In this document: positions 8,426 to 60,995 of the stretch, one piece after another
How positions within the stretch are numbered: the first letter of the stretch is position 1
Layout of the letters: the number at the start of each line of letters is the position of its first letter
NCBI GenBank assembly: GCA_035310145.1
Contig: DATGEL010000054.1
Coordinates: forward strand, 1-64,000
Length of the DNA stretch: 64,000 bases
Reading direction: 5' to 3'
Source: Dehalococcoidia bacterium
GTDB taxonomy: Bacteria > Chloroflexota > Dehalococcoidia > CAUJGQ01
Program-made: the position numbers and the translations under genes
Notes under the pieces: generated by a model
Told to the model about the DNA's origin: nothing
The model's database searches: none
Seen by the model: only the letters and a program-made list of their open reading frames with translations

Positions 8426-8498
8426 AGGAGTGTAGCTCAGCCGGTAGAGCAGCGGTCTCCAAAACCGCCGGTCGGGGGTTCGAGTCCCTCCACTCCTG
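8426..8498 (+). tRNA. tRNA-Trp (CCA anticodon)
   Basis: Acceptor arms AGGAGTG/CACTCCT pair perfectly. The anticodon loop CTCCAAA (8457-8463) gives CCA, and GGTTCGAGTCC forms the T arm. The 3' terminal CCA is not fully encoded. Confidence 0.96.
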
Positions 8499-8526
8499 CC
8501 GCACCGGCGTTGTGCGCGGACCGCCT

Positions 8527-8610
8527 GCCGAGGTGGTGGAATAGGCAGACACGCCATCTTGAGGGGGTGGTGCCCTTACGGGCGTAGGAGTTCAAATCTC
8601 CTCCTCGGCA
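8527..8610 (+). tRNA. tRNA-Leu (GAG anticodon)
   Basis: GCCGAGG/CCTCGGC acceptor stem, class II length (84 nt) with a long variable arm (TGCCC..GGGC), and anticodon GAG in the loop TTGAGGG. CCA is not encoded; CCC follows the discriminator A. Confidence 0.96.
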
Positions 8611-8644
8611 CCCGAACCGGCCGGCTCGCGCGAGCCGGCGCTTT

Positions 8645-8719
<75 letters not shown>

Positions 8720-8747
8720 GATCGTCCGCCCGGCACGCTTCCTCCCC

Positions 8748-8821
<74 letters not shown>

Positions 8822-8879
8822 ACCGCACCGTCTGCGAGGCGCTCTGTACGGGGCGCCTCGTCGTGTTTGAGGCGGGCGC

Positions 8880-8960
8880 GCCCGGGTGGCGGAACGGCAG
8901 ACGCAGCGGACTTAAAATCCGTCGCCGCAAGGCATGCGGGTTCGACTCCCGCCCCGGGTA
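8880..8960 (+). tRNA. tRNA-Leu (TAA anticodon)
   Basis: GCCCGGG/CCCGGGT acceptor stem, class II variable arm, and loop CTTAAAA giving anticodon TAA. It is the last of five tandem tRNA genes. CCA is not encoded. Confidence 0.96.
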
Positions 8961-9011
8961 CCTCCGGTCCACCCCTCCCGCGGGCCAGCGCGCAGCGCAA
9001 CGGTTCCAGAG

Positions 9012-58712: not shown

Positions 58713-59525
58713 TTGGAGAAGCGTTTGAGCGGGCGGCTGCGAGTTGGCTGGTTTTCGACGGGGCGTGGGGCGGGCTCGCGGGCGCTGTTTCGCGCCATCT
58801 GCGCGGCGATCGACAGCGGGCTGCCGGTAGAGCTGACGTACGTCTTCTGCAACCGCGAGCCGGGCGAGGACGAGCAGACGGACCAGTTCTTCACGCTGGT
58901 GCGCGAGCGCGGCGTGCCGCTGCTGACGCTCTCCTCGGCCGCGTTTCGCAAGCAGGCAGGCGGCAAGATCGTGCGTAAGGGTGAGCTGTTGCCGCGGTGG
59001 CGTCTGGACTACGACGACGCGGTGCTGGAGCGGGTCGAGCCGTATTGCGCGACGCTCGGTGTGCTGGCGGGCTACATGCTGATCTTTGGCGCCCGCGCCT
59101 GCGAGCGGCTGCCCCTGCTCAACCTGCACCCGGCGGCGCCCGGCGGCCCGATCGGCATCTGGCAGGACGTGATCTGGCAGCTCATCGCCGCCCGTGCCGA
59201 GCACAGCGGCATCACGATCTTCCGCGCCATTCCCGAAGTCGACGCTGGCCCGCCGCTGGCCTACTGCACGTACCCGCTGCGCGGGCCGGAGATCGACCCG
59301 CTCTGGGCCGGCACGGCGGGCCAGCCGCTGGAACGGCTCAAAGTCGAGACCGGCGAGGAACTGCCGCTCTTCGCCGAGATCCGCCGCCGCGGGGCCCTGC
59401 GCGAGCCGATCTTGATCGTGGAGACACTCCGCGCCGCGGCCGAGCGTGGTCTGCCGCAGGCGGGCGAGGCGCTGGATCTCACCACGCTGGTGGAGATGCG
59501 GCTGGCCGAGGGACGGCGCTCATAA
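58713..59525 (+). CDS. formyltransferase-like protein (PurN/Fmt fold)
   Basis: A 270-residue protein from TTG 58713 with GGAGGTGG just upstream. The formyl-transferase fold is recognisable: L-R-V-G-W-F-S-T-G-R-G-A-G-S-R at the N-terminus, G-Y-M-L-I-F-G-A-R and L-N-L-H-P-A-A-P-G-G-P, where Asn and His are the usual catalytic residues, and an Asp in P-E-V-D-A-G. It is longer than PurN (~200) and lacks the Fmt C-terminal domain. A purine or amino-sugar formyl acceptor is possible. It lies directly upstream of the radical SAM gene, so a joint pathway is possible. Confidence 0.8.
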   Translation: MEKRLSGRLRVGWFSTGRGAGSRALFRAICAAIDSGLPVELTYVFCNREPGEDEQTDQFFTLVRERGVPLLTLSSAAFRKQAGGKIVRKGELLPRWRLDYDDAVLERVEPYCATLGVLAGYMLIFGARACERLPLLNLHPAAPGGPIGIWQDVIWQLIAARAEHSGITIFRAIPEVDAGPPLAYCTYPLRGPEIDPLWAGTAGQPLERLKVETGEELPLFAEIRRRGALREPILIVETLRAAAERGLPQAGEALDLTTLVEMRLAEGRRS

Positions 59526-59594: not shown

Positions 59595-60995
59595 GTGCGC
59601 GTTCTGCTCCTCTCGACCTATGAGCTCGGACGACAGCCCTTCGGGTTGGCGTCCCCCGCGGCGCGCCTGACTCAGGCCGGCGCAACCGTTCGCTGTCTCG
59701 ACCTGGCGGTGCAGGCGCTGGATGCGCAGGCGATCGCCGCTGCCGACCTGATCGCCTTCTATGTGCCGATGCACACGGCCACGCGGTTGGCGGCGCGGGC
59801 GCTGACATCGGTCAAGCAGCTCAATCCCACGGCGCATCTCTGCTTCTACGGCCTCTATGCGCCGGTCAACGAAGCGTTCTTGCGATCGCTGGGCGCCGGC
59901 ACGATCCTGGGCGGCGAGTTCGAGGATGGACTCGTCGCCCTCGTCAAGCGGCTGGCGACCGCGGGCGCGGCCAGCGCCCAAGAGGAACCGGTGATCTCCC
60001 TCGCTCGCCAGCCGTTTCTGGCGCCAGACCGCCGTGGCCTGCCCGGGCTGGAGCGCTACGCAAAGCTGATCATGGGGCCGGACGATCACCGGCTCGTCGG
60101 CTACACCGAGGCCACGCGCGGTTGTAAGCATCTGTGCCGACACTGCCCGATCGTGCCCGTCTACAATGGGCGCTTCCGCGTGGTGCCGCGCGAGGTCGTG
60201 CTGGAGGATATCGCCCGCCAGGTGGCGGCAGGGGCGCAGCACATCACCTTCGGCGATCCGGATTTCCTTAACGGGCCGCGGCAGGCGCTTCCCCTGGTGG
60301 ATGCCCTGCACGCGCGCTTCCCAGCGCTGACCTACGACGTCACCGTGAAGATCGAGCACCTGGTCAGGCACGCCGAGCTGCTGCCGGCGCTGCGGGATAC
60401 CGGCTGCGTGTTCGTGACCAGCGCGGTCGAAGCCGTCGATGACCTGATCCTGGAAAAGTTCGATAAGCGCCATACGCGGGCCGAATTCGAAGCCGTGGTG
60501 CGACGCTTTCGGACGCTGGGGCTGACGCTCAATCCCACCTTCGTCACGTTTACGCCCTGGACCACGCTCGATGGATACCTCGATCTTCTGCGCACGCTCG
60601 TCGAGCTGGATCTGGTGGCCAACGTCGCGCCGGTTCAGTACGCCATTCGCCTGCTGATTCCCGCAGGCTCGCGCCTGCTGGAACTGCCCGACGTGCAGGC
60701 GCTGGTTGGCCCCTTTGACGAGCAGGCGCTTTCCTATACGTGGGTGCACCCGGACTCACGGGTAGACAAGCTGTACGCGGTCGTTCGCAGGATCGCCACG
60801 GCTGCCGGCGCCCACGCCGACCGCCGTACGGTGTTCGCCCAGGTCTGGGAGGCGGCCCACGCCGCGGCGGGCCTCGCGGCGCCCGCGCCGGCCTGGCAAC
60901 CGCACGACGGCGCGCAAACGCCGGTCCCCTTCTTGAGCGAAGCGTGGTTCTGTTGAGCAGAGCCGGCTGAGGAGCAGGTTGCTCCCATCTACTGA
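59595..60995 (+). CDS. B12-binding-like radical SAM protein, probable selenoprotein with Cys-Sec-Ala-Glu-Pro tail
   Basis: A 466-residue reading from GTG 59595 to TGA 60993, with an in-frame TGA at codon 454 read as selenocysteine. The first ~120 residues resemble a cobalamin-binding-like Rossmann domain without its His motif. The radical SAM cluster motif is Cys177-x3-Cys181-x2-Cys184. A TIM-barrel part and a helical C-terminus follow. The tail is W-F-C-[TGA]-A-E-P-A-E-E-Q-V-A-P-I-Y. From memory, a radical SAM family with C-U-A-E-P or C-C-A-E-P tails is described in protein family databases; this should be confirmed. Stopping at the first TGA would give 453 residues. The reaction is unknown. 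Confidence 0.82.
60954..60985 (+). promoter_or_regulatory. candidate bacterial SECIS element
   Basis: The Sec-candidate TGA is at 60954-60956. A perfect 6-bp stem GGAGCA/TGCTCC (60971-60976/60980-60985) closes a GGT apical loop at 60977-60979, 20 nt after the TGA. Bacterial SECIS hairpins place a G-U-containing apical loop roughly 16-37 nt downstream of UGA, as in E. coli fdhF. The stem also codes for the tail residues, as expected for a bacterial element. Confidence 0.75.

Follow-up and report, generated by a model that had tools for sequence, protein, structure and literature searches.

The gene at 59595-60995 (+) of the window, the 64,000-nt stretch of Dehalococcoidia bacterium contig DATGEL010000054.1 (assembly GCA_035310145.1) analysed here, is predicted with near certainty to encode a selenocysteine (Sec)-containing member of NCBIfam family NF040546, the CUAEP/CCAEP-tail radical SAM (seleno)proteins, its in-frame UGA at 60954-60956 being decoded by SelB and tRNA-Sec with a hairpin at 60971-60985 as the bSECIS. 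The family had already been named in NCBIfam before this analysis; we add covariation in the SECIS, a partnership with an amino-acid ligase and relatives with tandem or shifted Sec. A literature search of partial coverage returned no mention of the CUAEP name, and an earlier description may exist. With a partner enzyme, a decoding signal and ArsL as a chemical analogue, the function of this named but uncharacterised selenoprotein family becomes open to testing.

The in-frame UGA and its decoding

Read directly, the frame begins with GTG at 59595 and is open through TGG TTC TGT (60945-60953) to the first TGA. Beyond it lie GCA GAG CCG (60957-60965) and the nine codons GCT GAG GAG CAG GTT GCT CCC ATC TAC, followed by a second TGA at 60993-60995, the terminal stop, in exact agreement with the preliminary description. 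The read-through product has 466 residues and ends SEAWFC-U-AEPAEEQVAPIY, the tail AEPAEEQVAPIY being encoded by 60957-60992. Cys453 (TGT, 60951-60953) and Sec454 form a vicinal C-U pair; the first position is Cys or Sec in all copies, and the codon of the second is TGA, TGC or TGT in relatives. Ordinary annotation drops 13 residues of this protein, the Sec and hence the probable active selenium among them, in agreement with the loss anticipated in the preliminary description.

The family that the preliminary description had pointed to, a radical SAM group with C-U-A-E-P or C-C-A-E-P tails, exists as NF040546, and the window protein matches it over residues 3-463 with 639.9 bits, well over the curated cut-off of 500 bits. 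Its C-[U/C]-A-E-P tail is spelled TGT TGA GCA GAG CCG at 60951-60965. The CX3CX2C motif of C177, C181 and C184 (60123-60146, +), the ligands of the radical SAM [4Fe-4S] cluster, is invariant in 65 aligned members, and the Pfam Radical_SAM domain (PF04055) matches above its cut-off with 45.5 bits. With a full-length match, the C-U-A-E-P tail and the radical SAM core, the window gene does not differ from the family as defined.

The source genome (5.3 Mb in 148 contigs) holds the Sec machinery that the preliminary description had proposed to search for, namely a tRNA-Sec with UCA anticodon (74.4 bits), selA (520 bits), selB (325 bits) and selD (366 bits). In other genomes a tRNA-Sec was found in 24 of 29 with a UGA-type tail versus 11 of 21 with a Cys-Cys tail (p 0.03). 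Of the five UGA genomes lacking a strong tRNA-Sec match, three have selA, whole or in pieces; for the remaining two, an incomplete genome or loss of the Sec system may be the reason. The selD match of the source genome (L014, G000:C119:309-1241, -) itself contains one in-frame TGA, and this SelD may be a selenoprotein, as many bacterial SelD proteins are.

Relatives were gathered as 80 loci from many phyla, 30 from a search of 400 Chloroflexota genomes and 30 found in one class by pattern search, together with a further 15 stretches extracted from the pattern-search genomes, giving 156 copies overall. All share the core W-[YF]-[C/U]-[C/U]-A-E-P, a motif by which the copies were partly collected, and their tails are C-U (94), C-C (54), U-C (5) or U-U (3). 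Cys-tail C-C-A-E-P homologues align with the window protein column for column, and they carry the tail rather than ending cleanly before it. The codons after the UGA are conserved in relatives and vary nearly exclusively at third positions: among 87 distinct sequences with a UGA, the first and second positions of the A, E and P codons have zero entropy, against 0.8-1.7 bits at the third. Variation confined to third positions 3' of the UGA points to purifying selection on a translated protein.

The hairpin at 60971-60985 (+), GGAGCA-GGU-UGCUCC, starts 14 nt past the UGA and has a loop opening with G, and so has the form of a bSECIS, a hairpin 3' of the UGA with G at the start of the apical loop. 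Folded locally it has an energy of -7.4 kcal/mol. The 45-nt post-UGA stretch as a whole is unremarkable (MFE z-score -0.15), its minimum-energy structure using a competing stem, and support for the hairpin therefore comes from comparison across relatives. UGA genes carry the hairpin at a fixed position. In 75 UGA sequences, selected for a Gln codon (CAA or CAG) at the loop site, the outermost core pair is G-C in 26, C-G in 23 and A-U in 12, and it is formed in 92% of them compared with 44% expected from shuffles, whereas in Cys-Cys genes the corresponding values are 37% and 43%. The loop opens with G in 75/75 of these pre-selected sequences, and the Gln codon there is always CAG, while Cys-Cys genes use CAA as well as CAG. 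Hairpins with a G at either of the first two loop positions are seen in 61% of UGA genes versus 20% of synonymous-codon shuffles, and in 11% of Cys-Cys genes versus 16% of shuffles; the relatives are not independent, and these shuffle counts are descriptive.

The Sec machinery, the post-UGA purifying selection, the Cys homologues and a hairpin that covaries in UGA genes only together bear out the claim of the preliminary description that this is a true selenoprotein. UGA is a normal stop elsewhere, including at the end of the window gene itself, and translation might in principle end at 60954 and leave the tail untranslated; we regard this as extremely unlikely, since it is contradicted by the third-position-only variation, the Cys codon in relatives, the SECIS covariation and the Sec machinery.

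Tandem and shifted selenocysteine

The name of NF040546 leaves out two kinds of tail found in some relatives. Three Anaerolineae-type Chloroflexota genomes encode W-Y-U-U-A-E-P through consecutive TGA-TGA codons (L040:5998-7398, L043:6016-7416 and L056:3-1298). Five further copies carry W-Y-U-C-A-E-P, with TGT or TGC as the second codon of the pair (L049:5995-7395, L187:4750-6141, L188, L189:6699-8099 (-) and L190:1299-2699). All eight genomes have a tRNA-Sec scoring at least 67 bits and seven of the eight have selA, for which the genome of the U-U copy L056 gave no match. In L049, L189 and L190 the terminal stop is also TGA, which argues against a genome-wide reassignment of UGA to a standard amino acid.

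A careful tree from which the tail columns were left out joins the eight U-U and U-C copies in one clade (100/99), within which the U-U lines are basal and the U-C copies a nested group (94/89). A larger quick tree also places the eight in one clade. The simplest reading of this branching order is C-U to U-U to U-C, which suggests that Sec moved from the second to the first position of the pair via a tandem-Sec intermediate, as far as can be judged from sequences.

The CC, CU, UC and UU pairs are interchangeable in the family, and the existence of all four suggests a function of the two residues together rather than of one position. It is possible, although we would stop short of calling it probable, that Sec shifted through a still living U-U intermediate with two UGAs and one SECIS in a single Anaerolineae clade, and that the C/U pair would then serve as a bidentate Se/S unit with interchangeable members, in a pathway of two steps, radical SAM enzyme and ligase, making an undiscovered amino-acid-derived molecule in many soil and water bacteria. 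The tandem tails pose the testable question of how a single bSECIS serves two UGAs in a row, and the shifted tails that of how the site tolerates a one-position move of Sec with its function intact. We found no relevant earlier report of bacterial tandem UGA codons or neighbouring Sec residues in the part of the literature covered, which is weak evidence of absence.

An amino-acid-ligase partner and other neighbours

An all-against-all comparison of the flanks of family loci identified a recurring ATP-grasp gene with ATP-grasp_4 and LAL_C2 domains, whose closest solved relatives are the L-amino acid ligase BL00235 and the alanine-anticapsin ligase BacD. The CUAEP family has a BL00235/BacD-like ATP-grasp protein as its partner, a likeness that concerns the partner gene only, which sits outside the window. 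Among 400 Chloroflexota genomes, 95 of the 99 with the family carry the partner, versus 31 of the 301 others (Fisher p ~9e-59, in a test that ignores genome relatedness). In a set drawn from several phyla, 44 of 50 genomes with a CUAEP gene contain it, among them the three with U-U tails and the only U-C genome of that set.

Partner and CUAEP gene lie within 5 kb of each other in 48 Chloroflexota genomes, with the ligase upstream on the same strand in 20, downstream and convergent in 16, and downstream on the same strand in 12. These three arrangements indicate that the link has been kept or re-made through rearrangements. The source genome carries its partner on the same contig, 24.6 kb downstream of the CUAEP gene (C54:85557-86774, equivalent to L207:1557-2825, +), with 126 bits to PDB 3vot; the partner reaches no NCBIfam equivalog cut-off. 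In-frame TGAs in five partner genes raised the question of a second selenoprotein, which we rejected because tblastn gave no internal stop; in the three of these five whose frame was read out, the TGA proved to be the normal stop at the end of the gene.

Other recurring neighbours of the family are YggX (45 loci), an NfuA-like gene (27) and an Fmt-like formyltransferase (28). YggX (Fe(2+)-trafficking, PF04362) is the immediate upstream neighbour of the selenoprotein gene, or is close to it, in its ~45 loci (for example L146, L136 and L200). In the source genome an NfuA-like gene (L207:3870-4487, -) follows the partner ligase at a distance of about 1 kb. The window itself has a PurN-like formyltransferase upstream of the selenoprotein gene (58713-59525, +; PF00551, 33.6 bits), which belongs to another subfamily than the Fmt-like proteins at family loci, the two giving no mutual tblastn match; its relevance to the selenoprotein is uncertain.

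Predicted fold, likeness to ArsL and possible chemistry

An AlphaFold2 model built from 65 members has a pLDDT of 94.4 and a pTM of 0.92, the tail being lower at 70-88. The closest solved fold is AprD4 (PDB 6fd2; Z 27, 402 residues aligned), followed by B12 methylases and MiaB, with MiaB/RimO among the matches. AprD4 is a radical SAM diol dehydratase that acts on paromamine, an aminoglycoside precursor; it has 18% identity to the window protein and, unlike it, no known Sec tail. The fold resembles both AprD4 and the cobalamin enzymes, and the B12-binding domain PF02310 scores 20 bits, below its cut-off of 32.1. Only five Cys/Sec positions are invariant in the 65 aligned members, C177, C181, C184, C453 and C454 (U), which points to a single radical SAM cluster, with the C-U pair left free.

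The second-best NCBIfam match of the window protein is the model of ArsL, the radical SAM enzyme of arsinothricin biosynthesis (NF040542, 281.7 bits over residues 3-397). We rejected an assignment to ArsL itself because the score is well below the curated cut-off of 450 bits and the tail is WFCUAEP, not RCCLKC. The two proteins are nevertheless homologous, with 31-34% identity in the alignment and the same CX3CX2C motif, and the ArsL tail also holds a vicinal Cys pair near the C-terminus. The alignment places this pair onto C453-U454 across a gap of ~40 columns, which is suggestive only. The window protein differs from ArsL in its CUAEP-type tail, in having Cys-Sec instead of a Cys pair and in ~40 additional residues ahead of the tail. 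For ArsL itself, the predicted reaction is cleavage of SAM to an aminocarboxypropyl radical, which joins As(III) (PMC8552651).

The ArsL homology and the fit of paired C-terminal chalcogens to As(III) would accord with an arsinothricin-like pathway, in which As(III) is the substrate and the ligase makes an arsenical dipeptide, and a Priestia ArsL-like gene does lie near an ATP-grasp gene, a distant relative of the partner, and an ArsR-family gene. However, no ars genes recur near CUAEP family loci, arsR, arsM and arsQ included, and the score is below the ArsL cut-off. The family is also widely distributed, in part vertically, being found in many phyla and in roughly one in four of the Chloroflexota sampled, a breadth that would suit general metabolism better than a specialised arsenical. 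We consider an arsenical product improbable.

As a working model, which we hold tentatively, the window protein would be a radical SAM enzyme with a single cluster, structurally grouped with ArsL and AprD4, and its flexible C-terminal C-U pair would act as a two-pronged soft clamp for a metalloid, metal or chalcogen substrate and present it at the SAM site. There a radical derived from SAM, which by analogy with ArsL would be the 3-amino-3-carboxypropyl radical, would form a carbon-X bond and yield an unusual amino acid, which the co-inherited L-amino-acid-ligase ATP-grasp protein would then join to another. The clamping role of the tail, the aminocarboxypropyl chemistry and the order of the two steps are what we infer from these likenesses, as are a soft-element clamp in ArsL too and an amino acid as the product in the CUAEP family. 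Against the model, 31 Chloroflexota genomes carry the ligase without the CUAEP family. Sec identity and working model taken jointly are our best explanation overall, on which, as a compromise between its two parts, our judgement is evenly balanced.

Vicinal C-U pairs readily form selenenylsulfides, and an H-atom donor Cys is known in some radical SAM epimerases. The C-U pair could accordingly be a redox or H-donor element, in which an Se-S bond is formed and reduced or the selenol gives an H atom to a substrate radical. We think this rather unlikely, but it remains a serious rival to the soft clamp: a mobile C-terminal tail fits shuttling, and the NfuA-like and YggX genes recurrent near the family are iron or Fe-S genes. 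No dedicated reductase recurs alongside the family, and the free swap between CU, UC, UU and CC would be unexpected for a position-specific H donor, although not for an Se-S bond. The NfuA-like genes, in 27 family loci and 1 kb from the source-genome ligase, could also be carriers that repair a sacrificial second cluster held or rebuilt by the C-U pair, making the protein an S- or Se-insertion enzyme, and the presence of MiaB/RimO among the structural matches would agree. Five invariant Cys/Sec positions do not suffice for a complete additional [4Fe-4S] site, and we give this insertion role a very low probability.

Elsewhere in the window, we observed a TPP riboswitch at 2345-2459 (+, 59.8 bits) and a cluster of five tRNA genes at 8426-8962 (+) for Trp, Leu, Gly, Cys and Leu.
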